Of a DNA stretch of 51,535 nucleotides, positions 18,219-51,535 are shown in pieces. The notes beneath the pieces are model-generated. The model was given only the letters and a program-made list of their open reading frames with translations, made no database searches and was not told the DNA's origin. The stretch is from assembly GCA_000989565.1 (NCBI GenBank), contig LBOO01000013.1, forward strand, positions 1 to 51,535. The letters run 5' to 3'. The position numbers and the translations under genes are program-made. The DNA comes from Candidatus Peregrinibacteria bacterium GW2011_GWA2_33_10 (GTDB lineage Bacteria; Patescibacteriota; Gracilibacteria; UBA1369; GWC2-33-13). Every line of letters starts with the position of its first letter. Positions within the stretch are counted from its first letter, which is position 1.

Positions 18219-18939
18219 ATGTTTATAGACACTCACGCACATTTGGATTTTCCTCAATTGGCTTCAAATTTGGAGCAGGTTTTAGCTGATGCAAAAGACG
18301 CGCGTGTAGAGAAGATTGTGAATGTGGGTTGTAATATTGGAAGCAGTAAAAAAACTTTGGAACTTGCTTCCAAATATTCTTTTGTTGCTAACCAAACATC
18401 ACCAACTTTTCCAATGCGAAAATGGATGTTATGTCTACCTGCACCTAAGGGGGTAACTTTATCATTTCCAAATAATCTTAATCTATCTGTAAATGCATAA
18501 GTTCTAAGACTATCCATAAATGCTTCATCCCTCTTTATTTCTGGTTTCAATTCTTGAAAATATTCAAATGGGTCCATATCCAATATAGCCTCCTTCATTA
18601 TTTTATAAATATATGGTTGTTTTTCATTGCTTCGCTTCAACTCTGAATTTCGCTTTCAAGGTGTGGGATAAAGGTTATTTTACTTCTTTTACAGGGATTG
18701 TCACTTATCCTAATGCCGGGGATTTAAGGGAAGTGGTTAGAAATGCGCCTTTGGATAAGATTATGATTGAAACTGATTGTCCTTTTTTAGCGCCTCAAAA
18801 ATTTCGAGGAAAAACCAATATGCCGGCTTATGTTGTTGAAAATGCCTTTGAAATCAGTAAAATCAGGAATTTAAATGTTTTAGATTTGGAAAAGTTTTTA
18901 GAAAGAAATTCAATCAGATTTTTTAATCTCACTTCATGA
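18219..18939 (+). pseudogene. tatD: TatD-family metal-dependent hydrolase, middle replaced by foreign DNA
   Basis: TatD enzymes are TIM-barrel metal-dependent nucleases, usually about 255 residues. The N-terminal 56 codons (18219-18386: MFIDTHAHLD with the HxH metal site, to LELASKYSFV) and the C-terminal part (from about 18616: VVFHCF, then FTSFTGIVTYPNAGDL, IETDCPFLAP, and the end at 18939) are intact. Between them, about 225 bases of unrelated sequence replace the roughly 95 residues that should hold the GxHP and metal-binding Glu/His region. The reading frame does not cross the insert. The gene cannot make a working TatD as written. Its 3' end overlaps the stop of the next minus-strand gene. 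It may be real gene damage or a chimeric join. Confidence 0.85.
18388..18598 (-). pseudogene. Foreign gene 5' fragment inside tatD
   Basis: On the minus strand an open frame runs through the insert and reads MDPFEYFQELKPEIKRDEAF and onward to FRIGKVGDVWLA, then crosses into antisense tatD. I do not recognise the family. AAGGAGG (18595-18589) sits 5 bases before TTG 18583 and 11 bases before ATG 18577. This is a perfect Shine-Dalgarno motif, unlike the starts of the resident genes, so the fragment looks as if it came from an organism with normal anti-SD ribosomes. Only the first ~65 codons are present. Confidence 0.5.
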
Positions 18940-21222
18940 GTATAGATTTGCCAGTTTTATGTTGTGCAAGGTCGCCATGAATGAATTTCTGAATTCATTG
19001 GTTTTTTCTTGGATTTCTTTTGAATAGGCCAGTTGTTCATCTGTTTCTCTGGGTTTTAAAGATTTACAAAATTTTCGAAGATTTTTTTCCAAATCAGGGT
19101 ATTCCAATATTTGCTCATACAATTTATCTCTATTTTGTTGTTGTGAAAGAATTTCAATGATATTTTCCAATATAACCGAATATTTATTGTAGTGCGTTTC
19201 TTCGGAATTTAAATGTAAAATTTGATTTCCATGTTCATCAGTAATGTTTTTTTTGTTATAAAGACATATTTTGTGGAGGTTGAAATAAGTTTCAAGTAAA
19301 CCATCCAGATGTTCCGCGAGATTAACAACTCTATGTGTTGATTTATCCTTGTTTTTTTGTTGAATTATGCCCAATTTTCTCCCTATTATTTTATTTTTTC
19401 TGCCCACATATTTATCATGATCCCCTGTTTCATGTTGTTTATTATATTGTTTTATTTGTATTTCCATTGGTTTTAAATCAGTAGTTTTTTCATTTATTTC
19501 ACCGTTAATTGTGAATTTTATTTTCTTTTCTTCTGTTTTTTGAAAAAAGGGAATTGGATCTATTTGTTTGCACATTATTATGAGTTGCGAAAATAGATCT
19601 TTTATTTTTATGGCTGCTTCCATTCTTTTTTCAATTTCACTAATTTCATGATTTTTAGGCGTTCTTTTTTCGCGTTCTTGCTCTTTTCTCCTTTTCAGCA
19701 TATTGATGTAATGATTTAGATTTTTTTTATAAAATGAATTTCTTTCGTTTAAATGTATTTCTTGTTCAAATAAATCAAAAATTTCAGGATTTTGTTCTAT
19801 GAGTTCTTTTAATTCTCCACTGATTTTTAAAATATCCTTTTCATTAAATCCACATCTTAATTTGAGAGTTGTTTTAATTCTATGATATTCATTTGTGCTG
19901 AATGGATTTTTTGATTCTTTGTAAGTGTTTTTATAATTATCGGGTATATTGTTTGATCCCCATAATTCTTCCACAATACCGAAAAGTTCAACAGCGGCTT
20001 GCGTTTTTTCTGAAGTGGATAATTTTTCGAATTTTGATGTGCAGGGAAAATATAATGTGCCGCGTATCAGATCGGTTATGCCATGTATATTATTGATTTC
20101 GTCTTGTATGTATCTTTTGTTTATATATTTAAGCACAACGGAAGGAAGTTGTTTTGTTGTGCCAATAGCGAAAATAGGGCATTCAAATATATCCGTATCA
20201 CTTTTTAAAATTATACCCTCGGAAAACGTCGGAGGTTTTTCAATTAAAGATATGTACTCATTTTTCATCTCTTCTGAAGGCAAATACATCATATCTCCAT
20301 TCTGTACATTATAAATTTTATCAGTTTCCGGATTTTTGATGTTTATTGTGGGGCCTTCGTGAAAAACAAAAGATATTTTTTCGCAGAATTTATTATTTTT
20401 CGGATGCTCGGCAAAACTTTGCAATTCATTTTTTATATGAGTTGTGCTCGCCAATGCCTGAGGGTAATCATAATTCAGTTTAACTTCATTATAAATATTC
20501 ATTAATTGAAGTTTCGCGTAGGATTGGTAATAAAAAGATATTTCCTCTTCATTCGCGGGTAATTTTTTAATTAATATTTGTCGTAAATTTTCCGGAGAAT
20601 ATTCGGCTCTTATTTCGTTATTATTTAGGAATTCGGGAAAAATGTGGTCTATTAATTCATTCGTTTCAAGGCTTAATTCTGATAGATACTCTTTGCTTCT
20701 TTCCTGATATTTTTTTAGTCTTTCTTTTTCTTCCGTTGAAATTTCTATTCCATTTTTGAGATCATCCATTGTCTCTAGTAATTTTCCGTTAGCCGGACAC
20801 CATATTGTATCTATGTTTTTAAACCAGGAATATCCTTCAAAGTGCTTAAAGATTTGGTCAAAAAACTGTTTTTCTTGTTTCTTATTATGTTTCTTTTCGA
20901 CTTTTCTTTTTGATTTTTTGTAACTTTCAGAAATAAGATCAGAAAGTTTAATATTTGCCAAATCTTCAATTAGATTTTTAAAATATTCACAAGCGGATTC
21001 GTATGGATTATTTGTGTTATTGCTTATTATTTTAAAGTTTTCACATACTGCTCTTTGTGTTTGCCTAATAGGTTCTAACATTAATTCTTGTAGAAAAGCG
21101 CTTATTTTAGCCAAAACCATTTCTTTTTCAACCGTTTCCCGTTCTTCCCGATTTCCCATATGGGTTATATATGCTTCTCCCACGGCTGAGTGAGCGATAT
21201 TGTTGTTTGTAGTTTTTTCCAT
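18934..21222 (-). CDS. Large protein with RelA/SpoT-like nucleotidyltransferase motifs
   Basis: This 762-residue protein matches no family I can name with certainty. Residues 351-392 (TTKQLPSVVLKYINK, then NIHGITDLIRGTLYF) resemble the K..S..K and DLxGxR motifs of the ppGpp synthetase fold, with Asp384 at the Mg-binding position. EYHRIKTTLKL (445-455) resembles the GYRSxHTTV strand, and PMEIQIKQYNKQHETG (585-600) resembles the EVQIRT...AE.G motif with Glu587. Between the last two lies an extra charged helical insert of about 130 residues. Residues 1-240 are helical with no signal or membrane segment. It may make a modified nucleotide, but activity is not shown. It has a strong own promoter and a 5' leader of about 190 bases, and diverges from the Nudix gene. 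Confidence 0.5.
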   Translation of the reverse strand: MEKTTNNNIAHSAVGEAYITHMGNREERETVEKEMVLAKISAFLQELMLEPIRQTQRAVCENFKIISNNTNNPYESACEYFKNLIEDLANIKLSDLISESYKKSKRKVEKKHNKKQEKQFFDQIFKHFEGYSWFKNIDTIWCPANGKLLETMDDLKNGIEISTEEKERLKKYQERSKEYLSELSLETNELIDHIFPEFLNNNEIRAEYSPENLRQILIKKLPANEEEISFYYQSYAKLQLMNIYNEVKLNYDYPQALASTTHIKNELQSFAEHPKNNKFCEKISFVFHEGPTINIKNPETDKIYNVQNGDMMYLPSEEMKNEYISLIEKPPTFSEGIILKSDTDIFECPIFAIGTTKQLPSVVLKYINKRYIQDEINNIHGITDLIRGTLYFPCTSKFEKLSTSEKTQAAVELFGIVEELWGSNNIPDNYKNTYKESKNPFSTNEYHRIKTTLKLRCGFNEKDILKISGELKELIEQNPEIFDLFEQEIHLNERNSFYKKNLNHYINMLKRRKEQEREKRTPKNHEISEIEKRMEAAIKIKDLFSQLIIMCKQIDPIPFFQKTEEKKIKFTINGEINEKTTDLKPMEIQIKQYNKQHETGDHDKYVGRKNKIIGRKLGIIQQKNKDKSTHRVVNLAEHLDGLLETYFNLHKICLYNKKNITDEHGNQILHLNSEETHYNKYSVILENIIEILSQQQNRDKLYEQILEYPDLEKNLRKFCKSLKPRETDEQLAYSKEIQEKTNEFRNSFMATLHNIKLANLYS

Positions 21223-21245
21223 AAATAATTACCCGAAGGTGTTTT

Positions 21246-21305
21246 CTTCGAGAGTTATATGATAAGGGGTTTTGATTATATTTTATCCGCAATTCACTCT
21301 CGAAG
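21246..21305 (-). promoter_or_regulatory. Inverted repeat in the 5' leader of the Rel-like gene
   Basis: CTTCGAGAGT (21246-21255) and its exact complement ACTCTCGAAG (21296-21305) flank 40 bases, with a nested GATAA/TTATC pair inside. The repeat lies within the predicted untranslated leader, ending 24 bases before the start codon, so it could form an RNA stem that affects translation or bind a dimeric regulator as DNA. Confidence 0.5.
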
Positions 21306-21417
21306 TTTGAAACTGCCAAAACATGTAAGTATGTATGGTCATATTTACGTGATTTATTAAGCGGTTCTTTAAATTTGAGAGAAATTGTTTCATAATAATT
21401 GTTTTTATCTTAAGGCG

Positions 21418-21445
21418 ATTATATATATAATCTAAAATTTGTCAA
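21418..21445 (-). promoter_or_regulatory. Consensus sigma-70-type promoter for the Rel-like gene
   Basis: On the minus strand TTGACA (21445-21440) and TATAAT (21423-21418) are both perfect, 16 bases apart. The start point would be near 21411, giving a leader of about 190 bases. Confidence 0.75.
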
Positions 21446-21495
21446 CGTTTTTGGTTGAATTTCAGGATTATTGTTTGTTTTAATCTGTTTTTTGT

Positions 21496-21524
21496 TTGAC
21501 AATAATAGCTTTTATTTTTATGTT
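21496..21524 (+). promoter_or_regulatory. Sigma-70-type promoter for the Nudix gene
   Basis: TTGACA at 21496-21501 and TATGTT at 21519-21524 are spaced by 17 bases. The start would be near 21531, 29 bases before the ATG. It is separate from and diverges from the promoter at 21418-21445, with about 50 bases between the two -35 boxes. Confidence 0.65.
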
Positions 21525-21559
21525 TGGTGAAGTTTATTTAAAGTTTTAATATTTTCGTA

Positions 21560-23680
21560 ATGGAGTTGTCGAATCGAGAAAGTTATAAAACAAAAGAGCA
21601 GCATGTGATACGAATTTGTTTGTTTAAGAATATTTTACGAATTCCTGAAGATACTTCTTTAGATAAGATTAATTTTGTTGAGTTTATTTTAGGTCGCAAG
21701 ATAGGAGCTCAAAACGAAGGGCAGGTGACGCCAATTGGTGGAAAGGTGGAAAATGGAGAAAATTGTTGTCAGACAAGAAGGCGTGAAAGTATTGAGGAAA
21801 CAGGAGCTGTTTCTTGTATGCCATGTAATTGCCATGACAGTACAATTGGTCGACAGAAATATACTTTTTTTCATAAACCTAAAAATTTTATAATTAAGAA
21901 CGCATCCGATTACAGTTATTCAGATATATTGCCTTCCATTCATCCTGTAGTGCTTAATCTTGAAGAGGATAAAATGAAAATTTTAGGTTTGAATAATCAG
22001 GAATGGAAAGAATTGGTTCTGAAAAAAGCTCTTACGTTACGAAGAAAAGACGGGACTGAATTTACCATAACTATTTTGGATGCTTTAAATCTTGATCAAG
22101 AAGCGCGGGAGTTGAATTTTGTGGAAGCTGATCAGGCGGAGGTGGAAAAAATTGTACAAGGGATTACTGAAGTTTTTGATAAAAGAGAAATTTTAGCTAA
22201 AAAAAGGATATTATATGTTTTGGTTGATTTAATTTTTGATGGAAAATCAAAAATTGATTTGGGTAATCATGAAAGTTTCGATATAGAAAATTTGATTTTG
22301 GATATAAATGAGGAAAGAACATTAAAAGGCGTTGATAATCTTTATGGGATGGTTGTGCGTTATTTTCATGTTGATGGAAATATGTTGCAGAAGGCTTTGA
22401 ATTTGGTGAATATGCATTTGGAGATGGAATCTTTGAAAGATTCTTATGATAAATTTTCTGAAACGCAAACATGGAATCGAATGGCGACAGTTTTAGAAGG
22501 TTATAAAAATTATACCAGACATGAGATTTTTCAATTGATTAAAAATCCATACTTGACTCAGATGATTCGCGGTTTTTCGAATATTGCTTTGTATGTTCAA
22601 AGACAACTAGATCTGGATCCGGATTTACCAATTCCGGAAATTTTGGAGAATTTACAAAAATTGCCGGATAATTTAGTAGTTAATAATGAATTAGAAAAAA
22701 TTATTGAAGAATGTTGGGGTATTCCGAAAAATCAGTTTATAAAATATAAGAATGAAGCGGATAAATTCAGAAATGAAATTTTGCAGAAATCTATTGTTGA
22801 AGATAGTACTGGGAAAAAACAGGATTTCAGACAACAAGAAAAAGTTACTTCCTCTAAAACGTTTAAAGTTTTATTGGATTTGATATTTTCTAATGAGGAT
22901 GAAAAAACTAAATTTGAAGCGGCTGATTGTATCTCCAATATTAAATTAGCTTATGATGCCGCGTCATATCGTGAGAAGGTCAGACAAGAACCTCATAATT
23001 TAATTGAAGATAATATTTTTAATGGTCTTCAACGTGAGGATAGAGTTCATTTTATTGAACACTATAGATCGATAAAAAGTATTTCGGAAATTATGTCTAA
23101 AATGATGATAAAAGGATGTTCTCCCGATGGAATACGAGATGTGATATATAGGGAAATTTGTTTGGCAAATAAATCAGAGAGAGTTTCCGCAGATGTAGAC
23201 AATTATGTATGGGATGAAAACGGAGAATCGGTTCAGGTAAAGGGTGAAATTAATGATTATGTGGAGGTGTTGGATTTAATGGCTAAGATTCAGGAAAGAG
23301 GAGGGGATAAAGTAAAAATATTTAATTTCCAACCTTCTCCTGAAAATGACAGTATTAATATGATTATTCCGGGTTGTGAAACACGAAGTAATTTATCTAA
23401 ATTTTATATAGCATATGAGATTGAAGGCGCGGAAGCTACAACTGATCGACATTCTGTTTTTAAAAAACATTATATATATGAAGAAATTACAGTGTATTTA
23501 CCTTCTGAAGGCAAGACAGCATATATAAATCGATTGCTTAAAAAAGAAAGTGATCTTAAATACAAAATAGAAAGGAATTTTTATCCGCCTCCGGATATTC
23601 TTGTAAGTTTAATGATGGCGAAGTTTCCTGTTAGGATTTATGGCAAGGAGGTATTGAATTGGTTGAATGGGAATAAATAA
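21560..23680 (+). CDS. Nudix-domain protein with large uncharacterised C-terminus
   Basis: Residues about 15-180 look like a Nudix hydrolase. The Nudix box is G61-x5-E67-x7-R75-E76-x2-E79-E80-x-G82 (GGKVENGENCCQTRRRESIEE), which binds the Mg ions that cleave nucleoside diphosphate-X bonds. The remaining ~520 residues match nothing I recognise; they are soluble, largely helical in the middle, and end in a mixed region with VYLPSEGKTAYINRLLKKE. Typical Nudix enzymes are 130-200 residues, so this is a large fusion. It is transcribed divergently from the Rel-like protein gene, and both have good promoters. A nucleotide-turnover role is plausible; the exact substrate cannot be told from sequence. 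Confidence 0.65.
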   Translation: MELSNRESYKTKEQHVIRICLFKNILRIPEDTSLDKINFVEFILGRKIGAQNEGQVTPIGGKVENGENCCQTRRRESIEETGAVSCMPCNCHDSTIGRQKYTFFHKPKNFIIKNASDYSYSDILPSIHPVVLNLEEDKMKILGLNNQEWKELVLKKALTLRRKDGTEFTITILDALNLDQEARELNFVEADQAEVEKIVQGITEVFDKREILAKKRILYVLVDLIFDGKSKIDLGNHESFDIENLILDINEERTLKGVDNLYGMVVRYFHVDGNMLQKALNLVNMHLEMESLKDSYDKFSETQTWNRMATVLEGYKNYTRHEIFQLIKNPYLTQMIRGFSNIALYVQRQLDLDPDLPIPEILENLQKLPDNLVVNNELEKIIEECWGIPKNQFIKYKNEADKFRNEILQKSIVEDSTGKKQDFRQQEKVTSSKTFKVLLDLIFSNEDEKTKFEAADCISNIKLAYDAASYREKVRQEPHNLIEDNIFNGLQREDRVHFIEHYRSIKSISEIMSKMMIKGCSPDGIRDVIYREICLANKSERVSADVDNYVWDENGESVQVKGEINDYVEVLDLMAKIQERGGDKVKIFNFQPSPENDSINMIIPGCETRSNLSKFYIAYEIEGAEATTDRHSVFKKHYIYEEITVYLPSEGKTAYINRLLKKESDLKYKIERNFYPPPDILVSLMMAKFPVRIYGKEVLNWLNGNK

Positions 23681-23749: not shown

Positions 23750-25528
23750 ATGCAATATTTTAGTTTGATTAAGTTTTTATCCAATGAATTGGATTTAAAT
23801 AAGACAGATATCCGCAAGCCGCCAAAATCTGAAATGGGGGATTTGAGTTTGAGAATTCAGGGAAGTTTTGATGAGGTAAAGTCCAAAGCTGATCATATTG
23901 AAGAAAAGTTAAGAAATATTGCTTCGGTTGAGATTATCGGCAATTATATTAATCTGAAATTTAAGGAAGATTTCCTTTTAGAAATGATTTTAAATGTTGG
24001 CAAATATCCGAATGAAGCAGTTAGAGAGGATATTCCAAAAAGTTATTTAATTGAATATAGCGCTCCAAATACAAATAAACCTCTTCATTTAGGTCATGCC
24101 AGAAATAGTGTTCTTGGCATGAGTCTCGCGAATTTATATGAATTTGTCGGAAATAAGGTCAGTAAAGTAAATTTGGTAAATGATCGTGGAATTCATATTT
24201 GTAAATCAATGATGGCTTATATGCTTTTTGGTGATGGAAGAACTCCGGAAACAGAGAAAATTAAAGGTGATCATTTTGTGGGCGATTATTATGTAATGTT
24301 TGAGAAAGAATGTTTAAGGCAGGCGCAGGCGATTTTGGAGGGGAAAGAATTGAAAAAAGAAAATTTTAAAGAGGATGATTGGAAAGAAAAAGTTGAAGAA
24401 GCTAAAGAGGAAACTTTGATTATGCAAAATGCCAGGAATTTGCTGAAAAAATGGGAAAACGGAGAACCTGAAACTATTGGTTTATGGGAGAAAATGAATA
24501 GTTGGGTGGTAGAAGGTATTAATAAAACTTATGATCGTTTTGGATCAAAATTTGATAAATATTATTATGAATCCGAGACTTACAGGTTGGGAAAAGATAT
24601 GATTGAAAAGGGGTTGGAAAGAGGAATTTTAAAAAGGCGGGAGGATTTCGCGGTTTACTGTGATTTGGAAGAATTCGGTTTTGGCAAAAAAGTGCTTTTG
24701 AGGGCGGATGGAACAAGTGTTTATATGACTCAGGATTTGGGAACGACTAAATTGAAATATGAAGATTCGAAGGCGGATAAATTAATTTGGGTTGTGGCTT
24801 CAGAGCAAAAATATCATTTTCAAGTACTTTTTAAAGTTTTGGAACTTTTAGGGTATGAATTTGCGAAAAATTGTTTTCATTATTCTTATGAAATGGTTGA
24901 TTTGCCGACCGGTAGGATGAAATCGAGAGAGGGGACTGTTATTGATTTGGATGATTTGTTGGATGCTTTAAAAGAAAGAGTTTTGGAAATAATTAAAGAG
25001 AGGGAAATGGAAATTAGTGGTAATATTGAAGAAACAGCAGATAATATCGGGAAAGCTGCTTTAAAATATTTTATTTTATCTCATAGGCCGGGTTCAAAAA
25101 TTACATTTGATATTGAAAATTCTTTGGCTTTTGAAGGGAAGACCGGTCCTTATGTTTTATATCAATACGTAAGAGCAGGGAAAATTTTGGAAAAAGCCGT
25201 ATTTTTAAATTTATATGAGAATTTGCAGATTGATAAAATTGATTTATTTGAGCAGGAAGATAAAAAACATATTCATAATTTGCTTATTTCTCTACTTCAA
25301 TTTGCGGATGTTATAAAAGAGTCCGCGGAGGTTATGGATCAAACGAAAATTGCGGATTTGATTTATAATTTGGCGAGATCTTTCAGCAGTTTTTATAATG
25401 ACGTGAATGTTCTAAAAGAGGAAATTCCGGAAAAGAAAGAAATTTTACTTTTTATTGTTTTTGTTTTTAAGAGGTTATTAGGGGTTTGTTTGGATATTTT
25501 GGGGATTGAGAAGGTAGAGGAGATGTAG
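23750..25528 (+). CDS. argS: Arginyl-tRNA synthetase
   Basis: ArgRS charges tRNA-Arg with arginine (class I). The 592-residue protein has a short N-terminal additional domain, then the HIGH-type motif PLHLGHARNSVLG, NLVNDRGIHICKSM, QDLGTTKLKYE, VVASEQKYHFQVLF, and the KMSKS-equivalent region GRMKSREGTVIDLDDL. The C-terminal helical anticodon-binding domain includes GPYVLYQYVRAGKIL. The length is normal. It is followed by an inverted repeat separating it from the converging radA gene. Confidence 0.97.
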   Translation: MQYFSLIKFLSNELDLNKTDIRKPPKSEMGDLSLRIQGSFDEVKSKADHIEEKLRNIASVEIIGNYINLKFKEDFLLEMILNVGKYPNEAVREDIPKSYLIEYSAPNTNKPLHLGHARNSVLGMSLANLYEFVGNKVSKVNLVNDRGIHICKSMMAYMLFGDGRTPETEKIKGDHFVGDYYVMFEKECLRQAQAILEGKELKKENFKEDDWKEKVEEAKEETLIMQNARNLLKKWENGEPETIGLWEKMNSWVVEGINKTYDRFGSKFDKYYYESETYRLGKDMIEKGLERGILKRREDFAVYCDLEEFGFGKKVLLRADGTSVYMTQDLGTTKLKYEDSKADKLIWVVASEQKYHFQVLFKVLELLGYEFAKNCFHYSYEMVDLPTGRMKSREGTVIDLDDLLDALKERVLEIIKEREMEISGNIEETADNIGKAALKYFILSHRPGSKITFDIENSLAFEGKTGPYVLYQYVRAGKILEKAVFLNLYENLQIDKIDLFEQEDKKHIHNLLISLLQFADVIKESAEVMDQTKIADLIYNLARSFSSFYNDVNVLKEEIPEKKEILLFIVFVFKRLLGVCLDILGIEKVEEM

Positions 25529-25532
25529 AGGG

Positions 25533-25626
25533 CGTAATTCGTAATCCGTAATTCGTAATCCGTAAATTGAATCATTTGAATTTTATTCATTTACGTATTA
25601 CGAATTACGGATTACGTATTACGTAT
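25533..25626. repeat. GTAATNCG-type inverted repeat, second copy
   Basis: The left arm is CGTAATTCGTAATCCG repeated twice; the right arm (25589-25626) is built from TTACGTATTACG and ATTACGGATTACG units, so the two arms are largely complementary. It shares its unit with 8249-8328. It lies in the short gap between the converging argS and radA stops and could end transcription from both sides. Confidence 0.85.
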
Positions 25627-26963
25627 TATAAATACCCACTTATCTCTTTAATCGATTTTACCTCAATATAATTTTTAAACTTTTTTCCTTTAACTACCGG
25701 GCCGAAGATTTTGGGGATTTTGAATTTTTGGGCTTCTTGTATTCGTTTTTCTATAAAATTTGGGGTGCGGATTTCGCCGGTTAAACCGATTTCACCTATG
25801 GCCAGAGTATTTGGAGGTAAAATGGTTTTTTTAAATGAGGAGATGATTGCCAAACAAACAGCTAAATCAGCTGCAGGTTCTTTTAATTTAAATCCACTGA
25901 CAACATTTATGTAAACATCTTGATTGCTTAAGTTAAGATTGGCGTGTTTTTGTAAAACAGCGATTAGTAGCTGGAGTCTGTTTACATCAAAACCGCTTGA
26001 CGCACGTTTGGGATAGCCGAAAGGAGTGGTGTTTGTTAAAGCTTGAACTTCAAGTAAAAAAGCGCGATTTCCTTCAATTGCGCAAGTTAAACAGGTGCCG
26101 AAAGAATTTTCAATTTTTTCCTCTAAAAAAAGTCCGGAGGGATTGTTGATTTCTTGTAATCCTTGTTCAGTCATTTCAAATACGCCGGCTTCTTGGGTTG
26201 AACCGAAGCGGTTTTTTATTGCCCGTAAAATTCTGAAATGTTGATATCGGTCACCTTCAAAGTTTAAAACAGTATCAACCAAATGCTCTAAAACTCTCGG
26301 GCCTGCCAATTGGCCTTCTTTAGTAACATGCCCGATTAAAATGATTGGGATTTTATTTTTTTTGGCAAAATTCATTAATTGTTCGGTGCAAAATCTTACT
26401 TGGCTTATGGATCCTGCATTTGAATTCAGATTTTCAGAATAAATAACCTGAATGGAATCTATTATTATTAAACTTGGCTCGTTTTGTTCAATTGTTTTGA
26501 AAATATTCTCCAAATTCACCTCATTTACCAGATAAATTTTGTCGCTTTTTATGTTCAGTCTTTTTGCTCTTGAGGAGATTTGGGATGCGGATTCTTCTCC
26601 GGAGATGTAGATAATTTTATTTAAATTTTCAGATATTTTGTCGCAGATTTGAAGAGTTAATGTTGATTTGCCGATTCCGGGTTCTCCGCCGAGCAAAATA
26701 AGGCTGCCTGCAACGATGCCGCCACCAAGAACCTGATCCAGTTCGGAAATGCCGGTTTTTGTGCGTACAAATTCTTCGTGGGCGTGTGAAAGAGAGGAGA
26801 TGGGGGATGCTTTGCCGCTGCTTAAAGATGGCGTTTTTTCCGTTTTCGTGTTGATCACTTCTTCGACGAAACTGTTCCATGCGTCGCAGGACGGGCAGCG
26901 GCCAAGCCATTTTGTGGATTCTTGCCCGCAGTTTTGGCAGAGGTATATGGTTTTAAGTTTCAT
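25626..26963 (-). CDS. radA: DNA repair protein RadA
   Basis: RadA is a RecA-like ATPase that aids branch migration and repair. The 445-residue protein has the N-terminal zinc finger CQNCG...CPSC (residues about 9-28), the Walker A GGEPGIGKST, ISGEESASQISSRA, the RadA-specific KNRFGS motif, and a C-terminal Lon-protease-like domain with FDVNRLQLLIAVL and PAADLAVCLAI. Length and order are standard. It converges on argS. Confidence 0.97.
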   Translation of the reverse strand: MKLKTIYLCQNCGQESTKWLGRCPSCDAWNSFVEEVINTKTEKTPSLSSGKASPISSLSHAHEEFVRTKTGISELDQVLGGGIVAGSLILLGGEPGIGKSTLTLQICDKISENLNKIIYISGEESASQISSRAKRLNIKSDKIYLVNEVNLENIFKTIEQNEPSLIIIDSIQVIYSENLNSNAGSISQVRFCTEQLMNFAKKNKIPIILIGHVTKEGQLAGPRVLEHLVDTVLNFEGDRYQHFRILRAIKNRFGSTQEAGVFEMTEQGLQEINNPSGLFLEEKIENSFGTCLTCAIEGNRAFLLEVQALTNTTPFGYPKRASSGFDVNRLQLLIAVLQKHANLNLSNQDVYINVVSGFKLKEPAADLAVCLAIISSFKKTILPPNTLAIGEIGLTGEIRTPNFIEKRIQEAQKFKIPKIFGPVVKGKKFKNYIEVKSIKEISGYL

Positions 26964-44453: not shown

Positions 44454-45939
<1,486 letters not shown>

Positions 45940-45954
45940 TTCCCTATTGCATTC
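45940..45954 (+). ncRNA. 3' arm of the pre-16S processing stem
   Basis: TTCCCTATTGCATTC is the complement of 44352-44366. It begins 27 bases after the C1496 equivalent at 45912, where E. coli has 46 bases to the mature 3' end. Confidence 0.85.
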
Positions 45955-45971
45955 TGAGTGTTAGAGTAAAA

Positions 45972-46000
45972 AGCTCACTTTTATAAAAGTGAGCTTTTTT
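45972..46000 (+). terminator. Terminator of the 16S unit
   Basis: AGCTCACTTTT (45972-45982) pairs with AAAAGTGAGCT (45985-45995) and is followed by T-residues. No tRNA, 23S or 5S gene follows on this transcript, so the 16S gene ends here. Confidence 0.9.
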
Positions 46001-46010
46001 GTTTACTGAC

Positions 46011-46072
46011 GGTGTTTGAAAAAGCACTATAAGAAAAACCAAATATGTCACTTTTTAAACATTCGCAGTTTT
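46011..46072. repeat. Short family A inverted repeat
   Basis: GGTGTTTGAAAAAGCACTAT on the left is matched by GTCACTTTTTAAACATT on the right. The outer end is the same as in the element at 10082. The centre is only about 25 bases, so it may be an internally deleted copy. It lies between the 16S terminator and the HIT gene. Confidence 0.6.
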
Positions 46073-46101
46073 TATTGTCGCGTTGATTAATTCAATCTTT
46101 T

Positions 46102-46416
46102 TTAATATCCCATTAAATGTAAATGGATGTGGAAAATTTCCTGTCCACCATCCGCACCTACATTGTATAATAGTTTATATCCTTTAGAGTTCAGCTTTTT
46201 TGCTGTTTGATTAGCAAGAAGAACTGAATCAGCAATAATATTTTTGTTTTTTTCTGTTATTTCAGAAACCATGGAAATATGTTTTTTTGGTAGTATCAAA
46301 AGATGATGCTTTGCTTTTGGGTTAATATCATGTATAACCATATAATTATCATCTTCATATTCGATATTTGCAGGGATTTCTTTGTTAATGATTTTGCAAA
46401 ATAGGCAATTAGGCAT
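46102..46416 (-). CDS. HIT-family nucleotide hydrolase
   Basis: HIT proteins cleave nucleoside phosphoramidates or dinucleoside polyphosphates. The 104-residue protein has CLFCKIINKEIP, KAKHHLLILPKKH, and the catalytic triad motif HIHLHLMGY at the very end. It stops right after the triad, a few residues earlier than many members, but is otherwise complete. It is on the opposite strand to the rRNA genes, inside the space that normally separates 16S and 23S. Confidence 0.93.
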   Translation of the reverse strand: MPNCLFCKIINKEIPANIEYEDDNYMVIHDINPKAKHHLLILPKKHISMVSEITEKNKNIIADSVLLANQTAKKLNSKGYKLLYNVGADGGQEIFHIHLHLMGY

Positions 46417-46497
46417 TAGATAAGGATTAAAAATTTTATTATACTTAAATTAATTGAGAAAATTCGAAATTGCAAATTCACATGCGTTGAATTAAAA

Positions 46498-46529
46498 AAA
46501 GACGTTAGAACTTCAGTTTTAACGTCTTT
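46498..46529 (-). terminator. Terminator of the sigma-4/HARE gene
   Basis: AAAGACGTTA (46498-46507) and TAACGTCTTT (46520-46529) form a 10-bp stem. On the minus strand it is followed by a T-run (46500-46494), about 25 bases after the stop of the gene at 46555. Confidence 0.85.
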
Positions 46530-46554
46530 CCGGTGTATGTTTTTTATAGTTAAT

Positions 46555-47655
46555 TTATGCCTCTTCTTTCAATGTATATACAGCTCTTCCAACTCTGACA
46601 AATTTTGGATTCTTTTGTAGATTTAGAGAGATAGTGCCTTTCTTTACCTTTCTTTGTTTTAATACGCCTTTCATTATTTGCTTTTTAGTTAACGGGCTTT
46701 TCTTTTTTAATAACATTTCAATAACGTCAGCAACAGTTCCTTCTTTATAACCCCATTCTTTAAGCGCGTAAAGTCCGCGTCCTACAAGTACGAAGTTTTT
46801 GCAGCGTATTAATTCGTTATGAACCGCTTGGTTGGTTACTTGCTTTTTATCAAATCCAACCGAGGAGATTTTGTCCGCGATTTCAATAAAATGTAACGGT
46901 CTTTGTGCCTCTTTCAAGATGATGTGAGCTTTATCGCGAATGCTTTTTGGATTTATATGTCTCCATCTGCTTAAACCAATGCCGGCTTTGGTATACTTTA
47001 GATTTTTATCCGCTTTTAATGCGGACCGTATATATTCCATGTCATAAATATATCCTTTTTCTTTTAATGCAAGTTCAATATCTTTAATTATTTTTTCCTC
47101 ATTAATCACGTCCTTATTTTGTTCCAGCAATTTGTGCGCTTGAGATAAGACATTTTTTAATTGATTTTTTCTTTCTTTCTCCATAAACCAAAAATCATAT
47201 AGATCGTTTGATTTTGAATTTTTCTCAATTTCAGGATCAATATGTAGCGCAAGGAGAATGATGTTTTTATCCACTATGGAGCTTTGATTGATTTGTTTGG
47301 TTATCAGACTTACAAGTTCGTTTTCGATTATTAATCCACCATGATTTTTTAATGTTTCTCTGGCTAAAATATTAATATTCTTCAGTTGTGTATTATCAAT
47401 GGTTCTTCTTAGTTTGTTTAAGGCTATTTTTTCAATCTGTCTAACTCTTTCGCGAGTAACATTGAATTGTTTTCCTATTTTTTCCAAAGTTTGTTTTGGC
47501 TGATTGTTCAAGCTGAATCTTTTTATAATAACATCTTTTTCTTTGTTGGTTAAAACAAGAAAAAGATCTTCAACAATATGTGTAAGATTTATGTCTTGAG
47601 TTTGGGTTGTACTTTGAGGATTCGCGCTATTGTAAATTGGTGAATTTTGGTACAT
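46555..47655 (-). CDS. Sigma-70 region 4 plus HARE-HTH domain regulator
   Basis: The 366-residue protein has a sigma-70 region 4 helix-turn-helix at about residues 30-88 (LTNKEKDVIIKRFSL, then IGKQFNVTRERVRQIEKIAL), but no region 2, so it cannot work as a normal sigma factor. Near residues 240-300 there is a HARE-HTH-type winged helix (RPLHFIEIADKISSVGF, VLVGRGLYALKEWGY), the fold of the RNA polymerase delta subunit. A second similar segment (KKSPLTKKQIMKGVL...VGRAVYTLKEE) ends the protein. It probably binds RNA polymerase and promoter DNA as a general regulator. The gene is bounded by its own terminator. Confidence 0.82.
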   Translation of the reverse strand: MYQNSPIYNSANPQSTTQTQDINLTHIVEDLFLVLTNKEKDVIIKRFSLNNQPKQTLEKIGKQFNVTRERVRQIEKIALNKLRRTIDNTQLKNINILARETLKNHGGLIIENELVSLITKQINQSSIVDKNIILLALHIDPEIEKNSKSNDLYDFWFMEKERKNQLKNVLSQAHKLLEQNKDVINEEKIIKDIELALKEKGYIYDMEYIRSALKADKNLKYTKAGIGLSRWRHINPKSIRDKAHIILKEAQRPLHFIEIADKISSVGFDKKQVTNQAVHNELIRCKNFVLVGRGLYALKEWGYKEGTVADVIEMLLKKKSPLTKKQIMKGVLKQRKVKKGTISLNLQKNPKFVRVGRAVYTLKEEA

Positions 47656-47822
47656 TTATTTTTTTAATTTTAAAATATATTTTTTATTAATTATTTGGAC
47701 AATATTCTTATAAGAAGATATTAATTTGTTTAACAAAAGTCAAGTCTCTTATACAAATTTTCGAACAAAATTTATTAATTTGGATTGTTATAATAAAAAT
47801 TTTTTATAAAAAAGTCAATACT
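47656..47822. other. AT-rich intergenic region
   Basis: No gene is seen. It should hold the promoter for the 46555-47655 gene. TTGACT on the minus strand near 47742-47747 and a TATAAG-like box near 47713-47718 are possible elements. Confidence 0.3.
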
Positions 47823-48062
47823 TTAAAAAAATTTTCCAAATAAAGAGAAAAATATTTTTTGCAAGCTTCCAATCATATATAAAAAAGATAATATTGAGAT
47901 GCCCAAACCTATTAATGGTAAGATCTCCCATGTACCTCCGCGGCCAAGATATTTTTCAGCAAAATATATATTGCCAATCCAATCTTTTAAACGCGCTCTA
48001 TAATATAGAATAAGAAAGCCGGTTGGAATTCCGATTAATCCAATAATAATTCTATTTAGCAT
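47823..48062 (-). CDS. Small two-helix membrane protein
   Basis: The 79-residue protein has two membrane helices: IIIGLIGIPTGFLILYYRA at the N-terminus and ILPLIGLGISILSFLYMIG near residue 60, joined by a short soluble loop with WIGNIYFAEKYLGRGGTWE. No catalytic motif is present. Its position upstream of the sigma-4/HARE gene on the same strand does not reveal a function. Confidence 0.6.
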   Translation of the reverse strand: MLNRIIIGLIGIPTGFLILYYRARLKDWIGNIYFAEKYLGRGGTWEILPLIGLGISILSFLYMIGSLQKIFFSLFGKFF

Positions 48063-48133
48063 ATTAATTTGTTATTGATGTATTTTAATTTTATAAAGAG
48101 ATTTGGAGGGAATGCAAGGGGAGTAATTTCTTA

Positions 48134-48162
48134 TTGACACCGGAAATGAATTTTAATAAACT
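48134..48162 (+). promoter_or_regulatory. Promoter for tRNA-Ala/tRNA-Ile
   Basis: TTGACA (48134-48139) and TAAACT (48157-48162) are 17 bases apart. Transcription would start near 48169, 19 bases before tRNA-Ala, confirming that these tRNAs are not read from the 16S promoter. Confidence 0.65.
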
Positions 48163-48187
48163 TTGCTTTGTGTGTAATTTGAAGTTT

Positions 48188-48264
48188 GGGGCTGTAGCTC
48201 AGTTGGCTAGAGCGCCGCGTTTGCACCGCGGAGGCCAAGGGTTCGACTCCCTTCAGCTCCACCA
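48188..48264 (+). tRNA. tRNA-Ala (TGC)
   Basis: Acceptor GGGGCTG pairs with CAGCTCC (one G-T); the anticodon loop TTTGCAC gives TGC; CCA is encoded. With tRNA-Ile it forms the pair usually found in the 16S-23S spacer. Confidence 0.95.
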
Positions 48265-48294
48265 TTCTTTGCGCAGCGGAGAATGCCATTCGTA

Positions 48295-48309
48295 TCCCGT
48301 ATTGCGGGA
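48295..48309. repeat. GC palindrome of the REP-like family
   Basis: TCCCGTATTGCGGGA lies between tRNA-Ala and tRNA-Ile and resembles the palindromes inside the 23S gene. Confidence 0.5.
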
Positions 48310-48346
48310 GAAGAGGGGCAACTAAGATTGAAATTTATACTTAAAT

Positions 48347-48423
48347 GGGCAATTAGCTCAGGTGGTTAGAGCGCGTCGCTGATAACGACGAGGTCGGTGG
48401 TTCAAGTCCACCATTGCCCACCA
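48347..48423 (+). tRNA. tRNA-Ile (GAT)
   Basis: Acceptor GGGCAAT pairs with ATTGCCC; the anticodon loop CTGATAA gives GAT; the T arm is GGTGGTTCAAGTCCACC; CCA is encoded. Confidence 0.95.
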
Positions 48424-48455
48424 GTAAGAGATTTAAATAAAAAGTATAAAAAGCC

Positions 48456-48484
48456 TTGACTTGTGAATTAGGATTGAGTATTCT
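48456..48484 (+). promoter_or_regulatory. Promoter for 23S rRNA
   Basis: TTGACT (48456-48461) and TATTCT (48479-48484) are 17 bases apart, about 235 bases before the mature 23S 5' end. It is the same -35 sequence as in the 16S promoter. The leader up to 48725 contains no gene. Confidence 0.6.
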
Positions 48485-48877
48485 CTTTACTGCTTATGAC
48501 AATTGAATTTGAAATTGTATTTGCCCCGGAGTCTGGATAACCATCCGTTATATATAGATTCAGGTTTAAGGGCATGTACAATAATGTGCCTTTTTCATTT
48601 GTTATGTAAAATTGCTCGTTGAAAATCAGGTTTATATATTGTCTTAAATTTAAGAGAATGAACAAAGAATAATTAGTATTTGATTTTGAAATTGCTAGTT
48701 AAATGAAGTTAGATATTGTATTAAATAAGTTACTTATAAAAGCATATAGTGGATGCCTTGACCTAAAATCTCGACGAAGGACGTGGCTAGCTGCGATAAG
48801 TCTCGGTGAGCTGCTAAGCAAGCTTTGACCCGGGAATTTCCGAATGGGGTAACCCCTCCAAATAAACTTTGGAGACT

Positions 48878-48892
48878 TCCCGCCTAGCGGGA
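48878..48892 (+). repeat. REP-like palindrome in 23S, copy 1
   Basis: TCCCGCCTAGCGGGA at a 23S loop tip; it shares its core with the copy at 49461. Confidence 0.6.
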
Positions 48893-49262
48893 GGGGAAAA
48901 GTTGGTGAACTGAAACATCTCAGTAACCAGTGAAAAGAAAGCAAAAGCGATTCCCTTAGTAGTGGCGAGCGAACGGGGAACAGTCTAAACCATAAAGATG
49001 CAATTGGCTGCAGCCTTAGTCTTTATGGGGTTGCAAGATATTATTGTTGCATTCCTGCATGAATGCTCATTTTGGATTATTTATTAGTCGAATAATTCTG
49101 GAAAGAATAGCGATACAGGGTAATAGCCCCGTAGATAAAAATAATTAATCTCAAATGTATTTTATCTTAAGTAGGGTCGGACACGAGAAATCCGGCTTGA
49201 ATCCGGCAGGACCACCTGCCAAGACTAAATAGATTTTAGGATCGATAGTGAACTAGTACCGC

Positions 49263-49294
<32 letters not shown>

Positions 49295-49337
49295 GATGAA
49301 ATAGTATCTGAAACTGTATGCTTAAAAGGTGTCGGAG

Positions 49338-49355
49338 TCCCGCATTGCGGGATGA
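49338..49355 (+). repeat. REP-like palindrome in 23S, copy 2
   Basis: TCCCGCATTGCGGGATGA is followed by CGG; the GGATGAC end recurs near 96-130. Confidence 0.6.
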
Positions 49356-49460
49356 CGGCGTACTTTTTGTAGAACGGGCCAACAAGTTAGCTGTATGGGG
49401 TTTGGTTAAGGGAGTAACACCCGGAGCCAAAGTGAAAGCGAGGATGAATAATCCGTTTTT

Positions 49461-49473
49461 CCCGCCTAGCGGG
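49461..49473 (+). repeat. REP-like palindrome in 23S, copy 3
   Basis: CCCGCCTAGCGGG, flanked by T5 and A7 that extend the palindrome to about 23 bases. Confidence 0.6.
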
Positions 49474-50059
49474 AAAAAAATCTCATGCACTAGACCCGAA
49501 ACCGAGTGAGCTATCCATGGGCAGGTTGAACCTGTCGTAAAAGACGGGGGAGGACCGAACGCACCGCTCTGAAAAGGCTAGGGCCTTCAACAAGGTACCA
49601 AACCTTATTAAACTTCCAATACTCGTAAAATTTAAACAGGAGTTAGACTGTGACAGCTAAGTGCCATAGTCAAAAGGGAAACAGCCCAGATTGTTATCTA
49701 AGGTCCCAAATTAAGTTTTAGTGGTAAAGGAGGTGGGATTACATAGACAACCAGGAGGTTGGCTTAGAGGCAGCCATTCCTTTAAAGAGTGCGTAACAGC
49801 TCACTGGTCGATTGTGATCCTGCGCCGAAAATCCAACGGGGCTAAAGCTTAAACCGAAGGTGCAAATGTTCCGCTTTGCGGAGCGTGGTAGAAGAGCATT
49901 CCTGTCAGCGTTGAAGTTTCGATGTAAGTCGGGATGGAGTGGCAGGAAGAGAGAATGTTGGCATAAGTAACGTTAGTCCGATGAAAACTCGGACCACCGA
50001 AAGCCCAAGGTTTCCCAAGCAACGTCAATCGACTTGGGGTTAGTCGGGCCTAAGGTCAA

Positions 50060-50075
50060 CCCCGCTAAGCGGGGG
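50060..50075 (+). repeat. REP-like palindrome in 23S, copy 4
   Basis: ACCCCGCTAAGCGGGG, a 6-bp GC stem with a 3-4-base loop. Confidence 0.55.
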
Positions 50076-50328
50076 CAGCCGATGGATATCAGGTTAATAT
50101 TCCTGAACAATATATATTTCGACCAATCTGTGATCAGTAAAAATTTTTTTGAATTGATTGAAGTGAGTTTCTCATTTCATGATAGGATAATTGATTGGAG
50201 CTCTTCACGGGTAGCTAAGGGGGGACGCAACGGGATAGTGAGAGCGTGTTATTGATTTCACGTGCAATAAGTAAGTTTATATCCTAATAATGTAAATCAG
50301 TTAGGATTCGCGAGCTTAAATGCAAAAT

Positions 50329-50346
50329 GCCCCGCAATTGCGGGGT
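50329..50346 (+). repeat. REP-like palindrome in 23S, copy 5
   Basis: GCCCCGCAATTGCGGGGT, a perfect palindrome in its core. Confidence 0.6.
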
Positions 50347-50670
50347 GATTCTTGTGGCTTCTGTTGCCAAGAAAATCCTCGTAGCGAGAAATATATGTTT
50401 CCGTACCGCAAACCAACACCGGTGGGTAGGTTGAGTATACTAAGGTGATCGAGACAACTATGCTTAAGGAACTCGGCAAAACAGCGTCCGTAACTTCGGA
50501 ATAAGGACTCCCAGCATTGATTTATTAATGTTGGGCGCAGCGAAAGAACTCGCGCAACTGTTTACCAAAAACACAGGTCTCTGCAAAACCGAAAGGTTAT
50601 GTATAGGGGCTGACACCTGCCCAGTGCCAGAAGGTCACGAGGAGAAGTTCACGCTTTGAATCTAAGCCCT

Positions 50671-50722
<52 letters not shown>

Positions 50723-50973
50723 AGGTAAGTTCTGACCCGCACGAATGGTGTAATGGTGTGAGTACTGTCTCAAGCATAGACTCGGTGAAATTACAATATC
50801 GGTAAAAATGCCGATTAACTGCGGCAAGACGAAAAGACCCCGTGCAGCTTCACTACAGCTTGACATTGGGTTAGGATATATTATGTGCAGGATAGGTGGG
50901 AGGCGTTGAAGCTCTGACGCAAGTCGGGGTGGAGCCATCCTTGAGATACCACCCTTAATATATTTTGACTCTA

Positions 50974-50990
50974 ACCCCGCATTGCGGGGG
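50974..50990 (+). repeat. REP-like palindrome in 23S, copy 6
   Basis: ACCCCGCATTGCGGGGG; the CCCGCATTGCGGG core is identical to copy 2, 1.6 kb away in a different helix. Confidence 0.6.
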
Positions 50991-51100
50991 ACATTGTTTG
51001 GTGGGTAGTTTAACTGGGGCGGTTGCCTCCTAAAGAGTAACGGAGGCGCGCGAAGGTTCCCTAGGCCTGGATGGAAATCAGGTCGATAGTGTATTCGCAT

Positions 51101-51136
<36 letters not shown>

Positions 51137-51255
51137 GCTCGAAAGAGGGCGAAAGTGATCCGGTATCTCCACGTGGGTGGGGTATCGCTCAACGGATAAA
51201 AGTTACGCCGGGGATAACAGGCTTATAGCGTCCAATAGTTCACATAGACGACGCT

Positions 51256-51295
<40 letters not shown>

Positions 51296-51299
51296 GAGA

Positions 51300-51374
<75 letters not shown>

Positions 51375-51411
51375 CCTCTATCTGTCGCAGTTGTAGGAAA
51401 TTTGAGAAGAC

Positions 51412-51454
<43 letters not shown>

Positions 51455-51535
51455 AATCTGTTGTCTTATCAAAGGCATGGCAGAGTAGCTATGTTCGGAA
51501 TGGATAACCGCTGAAAGCATCTAAGCGGGAAACCA

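Follow-up and report, generated by a model that had tools for sequence, protein, structure and literature searches.

The divergent gene pair

The stretch of DNA analysed here (the window, 51,535 nucleotides (nt) in total) comes from the 1.26-Mb genome (86.8% complete) of Candidatus Peregrinibacteria bacterium GW2011_GWA2_33_10. Two large open reading frames (ORFs) stand back to back in it and are divergently oriented: P1 (positions 18934–21222, minus strand), encoding 762 amino acids (aa), and P2 (21560–23680, plus strand), encoding 706 aa. Through its relatives, P1 could be placed in the RelA/SpoT homologue (RSH) superfamily, as a divergent member of a family designated X, and P2 carries an N-terminal Nudix box followed by approximately 520 residues without relatives. 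A preliminary description of the locus had recognized both ORFs, promoters in the region between them and the Rel-like and Nudix motifs, all of which are present. It had further proposed that the two genes form a make-and-break nucleotide-signal pair, a toxin-antitoxin system or a defence module, and this part did not withstand comparison with related genomes.

The intergenic region contains a perfect sigma-70-like promoter of P1 (TTGACA-16-TATAAT; 21418–21445, minus strand) and a sigma-70-like promoter of P2 (TTGACA-17-TATGTT; 21496–21524, plus strand). Across the whole stretch, promoter-like sites are not in excess (29, versus 26.4 with a standard deviation of 5.9 in shuffled sequences). The P1 leader (approximately 190 nt; 21223–21411) holds a terminator-like hairpin (21252–21232, minus strand), a possible attenuator.

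All of the motifs expected of a Rel-type enzyme occur in P1 in the appropriate order, i.e. K357-x3-S361-x3-K365, D384-L-I-R-G, H447-R-I-K-T-T and E587-I-Q-I followed by H-E-T-G, with approximately 132 residues (announced as a 130-residue insert) separating the third motif from the fourth. Shuffling P1 5000 times never produced the combined pattern. It was present in 10 of 433 ORFs of at least 250 aa, namely two canonical Rel genes from the window's own genome, six syntenic relatives and the window gene itself in two copies. Since the pattern was composed after the relatives had been seen, this is a check of specificity and not an unbiased test.

Relatives of P1 in fixed chromosomal slots

When used alone, P1 gave no convincing match in Pfam, NCBIfam, PADLOC or PHROG, and none in PDB. 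The first relative, and the sole other one obtained by protein search among 89 genomes of the same order, is a protein of genome G066 (25% identity; blastp E value of 5e-16), whose gene is located between radA and tatD. P1 lies between the same two genes, and in the window P2 and argS intervene. A named-genome search, performed with the P1/G066 alignment only, detected a relative in Candidatus Peregrinibacteria RIFOXYA2_FULL_41_18, of the same GTDB order.

A radA search gave some match in 89/89 genomes of the order (70 above the curated cut-off, the rest being fragments or RecA-like genes), and 60 radA neighbourhoods were examined. Twelve of these, including that of G066, hold a protein of 438–857 aa with the same motif order between radA and tatD (slot 1), which makes 13 with the window. 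In 9/13 the X gene directly follows radA on the same strand, with a gap of 12–92 nt, and in 11/13 it lies within 100 nt of the 3′-end of tatD or overlaps that end; the exceptions include G082, with X on the opposite strand, and G007 and G008, with an intervening gene. No conserved partner gene was seen in the 13 slot-1 loci. In many genomes, such as most of those examined from families f9, f11 and f14, radA adjoins tatD without X.

A profile of the 13 slot-1 catalytic domains (A3) was run on 353 genomes of the class. It matched 63 of them, including ordinary Rel proteins as weak partial matches, and 31 loci were retrieved, from which 30 further X candidates were kept (L148 was dropped as a canonical Rel). 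The 43 candidate members are distributed over 38/89 genomes of the order and 5 elsewhere in the class, at about one copy per genome. When 379 evenly sampled genomes of the phylum were searched, the matches outside the class, which were not inspected singly, were short, partial and of the canonical-Rel type. From these searches, X is best read as a class-restricted RSH branch that occurs in Peregrinibacteria and in some further class members.

Eighteen of the 31 loci have X next to a member of one gene cluster, identified by Pfam (in locus L122) as threonyl-tRNA synthetase; there, thrS is followed by recF-like, PrsW-like and uvrA genes (slot 2). An initial assignment of this neighbour as argS was rejected, because Pfam revealed a tRNA synthetase of class II carrying the SAD domain of ThrRS/AlaRS. 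Eleven of the 31 loci (L119, L120, L122, L123, L125, L130, L132, L136, L137, L138 and L139) have, upstream of X and on the same strand, a protein of 950–1324 aa (or truncated at the contig edge) for which Pfam gave no convincing match, possibly an operon partner of X in slot 2; part of the slot-2 loci show a neighbour of 1200–1320 aa.

Several candidates were set aside: the large slot ORFs of G084 and G086 (family f16), which lack the motifs; the G087 ORF, which is cut by the contig end and scores only 0.0094; and L008, which appeared by eye to be SecA-like (27% identity over 103 residues). The final profile (A5) comprises 35 X domains; the G046 fragment (L133) was dropped from both A4 and A5, and L132, L141, L146, L147 and L149 (no aligned Glu block), as well as L134 and L145, were dropped from A5. 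The X-like genes of L145 and L146 can be read through only if TGA codes for a residue, and these class members seem to have TGA reassigned. In family f3 (L025, L032, L049 and L050), a gene of 405–418 aa adjoins radA or X in the same slot; by eye, its versions in the different genomes are alike.

Homology of the X family to RelA/SpoT

The evidence for a Rel-type enzyme, as claimed in the preliminary description, comes from the relatives. Searched against all PDB sequences, A5 gave 19 matches at E ≤ 1, and 19/19 belong to the RSH superfamily, the best being 7oiw (4e-7) and 1vj7 (2.2e-6). Aligned by hhalign with the domains of 32 canonical Rel proteins of the order, A5 reached a probability of 97.6% (E = 3.2e-12), in register. 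The smaller A3 yielded only two PDB matches, both to Rel proteins (E = 0.067 and 0.13). In hhalign comparisons the four main small groups matched Rel with low probability (0.7–44%), the aligned stretches being in the expected register, and only the pooled profile was decisive. A3 scored canonical Rel proteins down to 1.1e-8. The Pfam model RelA_SpoT was matched at E ≤ 0.01 by 12 of 42 X members (no other Pfam family matched more than one), and L123 passes its curated cut-off (30.7 vs 27 bits). In a test on 977 ORFs, a profile trained without P1 and the G066 protein recovered both of them (1.6e-7 and 7.7e-12, respectively).

At least one canonical RSH gene is present in 87/89 genomes of the order, and three ordinary RelA_SpoT genes lie elsewhere in the genome of the window. 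X is thus additional to the canonical enzymes.

Active-site residues

The catalytic (SYNTH-like) region of P1, as spanned by the A3 and A5 profiles, covers approximately residues 340–635 (19318–20205, minus strand, as are features (i) to (iv) and the insert). It comprises (i) the putative clamp for the donor triphosphate, T355-x-K357-x3-S361-x3-K365 (20116–20160), equivalent to R64/K66/S70/K74 of FaRel2, (ii) the predicted Mg-binding D384 together with the D+5 position, which is T389 where canonical proteins have Arg (20056–20073), (iii) the acceptor-side Y446-x3-K450, canonically Y-x3-H (19873–19887), and (iv) the block P-M-E587-I-Q589-I followed by H602-x-x-Y605 (19408–19470). The residue roles were mapped from FaRel2 (PMC11782079). 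Between (iii) and (iv) there is an insert of approximately 120 residues (19489–19854), for which AlphaFold2 predicts, with low confidence, a helical hairpin; block means of the predicted local distance difference test (pLDDT) are 37–67 for residues 481–550 and 50–67 for residues 501–550.

We aligned the 35 X domains with 32 canonical Rel proteins; for 10 of the latter, the alignment does not include the C-terminal block. In FaRel2 numbering, K66, D90 and E145 are invariant in X (35/35 each), and K74 (31/35), S70 (25/35), Q147 (28/35) and an aromatic residue or His at Y128 (34/35) are mostly kept, as are the His (31/35) and Tyr (32/35) of block (iv). Other positions have changed: Arg occupies the R64 position in 13/35 and the R95 (D+5) position in 20/35 (vs 32/32 canonical proteins), a new Arg at D+3 (22/35) often accompanies the R95 changes, and His is found at Y+4 in 10/35. 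The Arg of E-x-Q-x-R is present in 2/35 X domains versus 22/22 canonical proteins having that block, and the RxKD-Y acceptor segment is not recognizable in the A5–canonical Rel alignment. These counts indicate that the phosphate and metal side has been retained and the acceptor side remodelled. P1 itself has K357, S361, K365, D384, Y446, K450, E587 and Q589. K357, D384 and E587 are invariant across the 42 full-length X proteins, and Asp384 and Glu587, the two residues that the preliminary description had placed in the active site, appear to have been chosen correctly.

Since the machinery for the donor triphosphate and Mg2+ is kept, X proteins are most likely pyrophosphate transferases, which would transfer pyrophosphate from a nucleoside triphosphate to a hydroxyl group of an acceptor. 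The alteration of adenine-stacking and acceptor-side residues suggests that this acceptor is probably not plain GDP or GTP. An alternative explanation would make X a secondary (p)ppGpp synthetase whose product is the ordinary one and whose sequence is merely relaxed. The retention of the K66, S70, K74, D90, E145 and Q147 positions fits this explanation, as do members such as the L123 group, in which Y-x3-H is retained and the RelA_SpoT cut-off is passed or nearly reached. We nevertheless consider it rather unlikely, given the near absence of the E-x-Q-x-R arginine, the scarcity of the Y+4 His, the unrecognizable acceptor segment and the canonical Rel already there.

Domain architecture and divergence

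X proteins are 438–916 aa long. No HD hydrolase, TGS or ACT domain was found by Pfam in P1 or in the 42 X members, the N-termini are unrelated to HD by hhalign, and the HDxxED motif is absent from the six X N-termini checked. In X, these domains of the long RSHs thus appear to have been lost. The synthetase domain of the latter (PF04607; Rel, RelA and SpoT; structures 7oiw and 1vj7) has the elements K-x3-S-x3-K, D, aromatic-x3-[H/K], E-x-Q and H-x2-Y in common with X, equally ordered and spaced, in addition to the significant profile matches. X differs in the lack of any other detected RSH domain, in the acceptor-side and adenine-stacking changes and in a whole-protein identity near background. 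RelP and RelQ (YwaC, YjbM; PDB matches of 1.2e-5 to 2.2e-4) are likewise synthetases without a hydrolase, but they are short and single-domain, whereas X proteins have large extra N-termini and P1 has its insert within the domain.

The N-terminal parts of five X subgroups showed no relation to one another in hhalign comparisons; these large, mutually unrelated halves are probably a regulatory or targeting part. A similar organization, with a SYNTH domain joined to variable N-termini in large proteins, is described for exported alarmone synthetases (PMC12691689); in contrast to these, a Pfam scan of 42 X proteins, made without a signal-peptide predictor, detected no secretion-linked domain.

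Pairwise identity across the 13 slot-1 genomes averages 51.5% for radA (78 pairs) and 42.9% for tatD (66 pairs, the broken tatD of the window being excluded). The corresponding value for whole X proteins is 23.8% (78 pairs), versus 23.2% for 40 shuffled X pairs. For the genome pair G043/G044, the ratio of nonsynonymous to synonymous substitution rates (dN/dS) of X is 0.21, compared with 0.05 for thrS, 0.08 for recF and 0.07 for the PrsW-like gene; for G043/G045 it is 0.23 versus 0.06 and 0.06 for the neighbours (dS above 1), and for G041/G042 it is 0.13 (no neighbour compared). The pair G032/G033 is contrary, with 0.07 for X (dS saturated), 0.29 for thrS and 0.11 for recF. X is therefore under purifying selection yet evolves faster than its neighbours in most alignable pairs, a pattern of accelerated divergence and not of demonstrated positive selection.

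A constant catalytic core joined to N-terminal halves that are unrelated to one another, faster evolution than the neighbours (G043/G044) and acceptor-side changes might also be expected of immune sensors or effectors resembling CapRel, a fused toxSAS. In such proteins, phage would be sensed by the variable domains, and the SYNTH domain would produce toxic alarmones or pyrophosphorylate tRNA. The toxSAS proteins FaRel2, Tas1 and CapRel belong to the same superfamily (PDB matches of 0.24–0.31 for FaRel2-type proteins and Tas1) and also have an altered acceptor side. Such a role for X is unlikely: its genes occupy fixed chromosomal positions beside radA or thrS/recF/uvrA, at about one copy per genome, no antitoxin partner and no mobile or defence neighbours were recognized, P1 has no PADLOC match, and dN/dS is below 1 throughout and not elevated in G032/G033.

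P2 and its position beside P1

The Nudix box of P2 (GKVENGENCCQTRRRESIEETG; residues 61–82; 21740–21805, plus strand) is complete with respect to the consensus GX5EX7REUXEEXGU, a feature shared with MutT/Nudix hydrolases. P2 matched the PHROG MutT/NUDIX profile (5.2e-4) and, unlike those enzymes, remained below the curated cut-offs of Pfam NUDIX (6.4e-3; 16.9 vs 21.1 bits) and NCBIfam YtkD (16.4 vs 154.4 bits). The AlphaFold2 model of its residues 1–190 has a pLDDT of 32. In the 89 genomes of the order, P2 matched, besides itself, one 147-aa Nudix protein over 68 residues, and no full-length relative was found in the 353 class genomes outside its own, nor any relative in phages, plasmids or viral contigs.

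The preliminary description had named the co-occurrence of the two families in relatives as a deciding observation, and none was found. Apart from P2 (and the 147-aa protein), no Nudix box was detected in the ORFs of the 31 slot-2 and scattered loci or of the radA neighbourhoods searched, and neither P2 nor a Nudix box occurs in any of the 20 argS neighbourhoods examined (82 genomes with argS). The reading in which P1 makes an alarmone that the Nudix domain of P2 destroys, as a two-gene signalling or toxin-antitoxin unit, can draw on the divergent promoters, on the genuine Rel-like and Nudix motifs and on the ppGpp-degrading Nudix enzyme of Thermus thermophilus, reported in PMC3153485. It is nonetheless highly improbable, because P2 has no relative in the 353 class genomes, the other X loci searched have no Nudix box, and P2 is co-oriented with argS and lies exactly where the adjacency of radA and X is broken. 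A mobile or defence origin was also rejected, as there was no phage or plasmid match, the few pattern matches in viral contigs gave no confirmed relative, and PADLOC detected nothing.

Immediately 3′ of P2, at a distance of 69 nt and in the same orientation, lies argS (23750–25528, plus strand), identified by Pfam and the sole copy found in the genome, followed by radA (25626–26963, minus strand). The Nudix gene looks, from these comparisons, like a chance neighbour of P1 and not its partner. In the simplest history, which is reconstructed from one genome, P1 and radA probably once shared a transcript, and a unit composed of P2, an unrelated Nudix-box protein, and argS appears to have been inserted between them, which would have created the divergent layout, split P1 from radA and left it with a promoter of its own.

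The other flank of the slot is formed by tatD (18198–18939, plus strand; identified by Pfam and alignment to a relative), which is broken in this assembly. Residues 15–77 and 169–254 of the relative align to 18198–18386 and 18613–18870, respectively, and the middle is occupied by 226 nt of unrelated sequence with no further copy found in the genome and no Pfam match, which is either an assembly error or a real replacement. The rRNA region of the window (44454–51535) is spread out: two opposite-strand genes, for a HIT-domain protein (46102–46416) and a protein with Sigma70_r4 and HARE-HTH domains (46555–47655), lie between the 16S gene (44454–45857) and the tRNA-Ala/Ile/23S genes (from 48188).

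Interpretation

Taken together, we consider it probable that P1 represents, in this genome, a hypervariable branch of the RSH synthetase superfamily and acts as a pyrophosphotransferase with a probably non-canonical acceptor, and that P2 is unrelated to it and reached its position as outlined above.

Several observations weigh against this assignment of P1. The protein does not itself match the RelA_SpoT model and was placed through the family. Leaving out only P1 from the profile lowered its score to 0.013, and leaving out its whole subgroup lowered it to 0.39 (the G066 protein still scored 4e-8), so that placing P1 relies on G066 and on that subgroup. AlphaFold2, run on P1 with one relative, gave no confident structure (pLDDT of 35.9). 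The invariance of the three catalytic residues is inflated, since the motifs themselves served in part to recruit the members. Finally, the adenine-stacking pair of arginines is absent from P1, in which T355 (by spacing) and T389 replace R64 and R95 of FaRel2; P1 could therefore be inactive or use another donor. These replacements, together with K450 in place of the His, would suit a P1 that, unlike the family, is a catalytically dead regulator. We regard this as decidedly unlikely, because P1 keeps all three family-invariant residues.

A more speculative and very unlikely extension of the pyrophosphotransferase assignment is that X proteins use the RSH fold to cap the 3′-ends of nucleic acids, or to modify a repair-linked nucleotide, as part of a DNA-repair toolkit linked to radA, recF and uvrA, and are not alarmone synthetases. 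To our knowledge, such a use of the fold in 3′-end capping or repair has not been described.

Among the papers found on Rel, alarmones or the stringent response in Peregrinibacteria, Patescibacteria, Gracilibacteria or the Candidate Phyla Radiation, no title or opening part of an abstract mentions a family of this kind. Divergent small synthetases that could not be assigned are collected in the catch-all group divRel (PMC3153485). X appears to be a previously unnamed, fast-evolving branch, located near DNA-repair genes in tiny uncultured bacteria.

The locus illustrates that a plausible two-gene module can arise as an accident of insertion. A large branch of the RSH superfamily has been nearly invisible to single-sequence annotation, as reflected by the small proportion of members that touch the Pfam model, and is nonetheless kept in fixed slots across a class of reduced bacteria that already have an ordinary Rel. 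If X proteins are active with a new acceptor, they would add a new reaction to the superfamily of alarmone synthetases and toxSAS enzymes.

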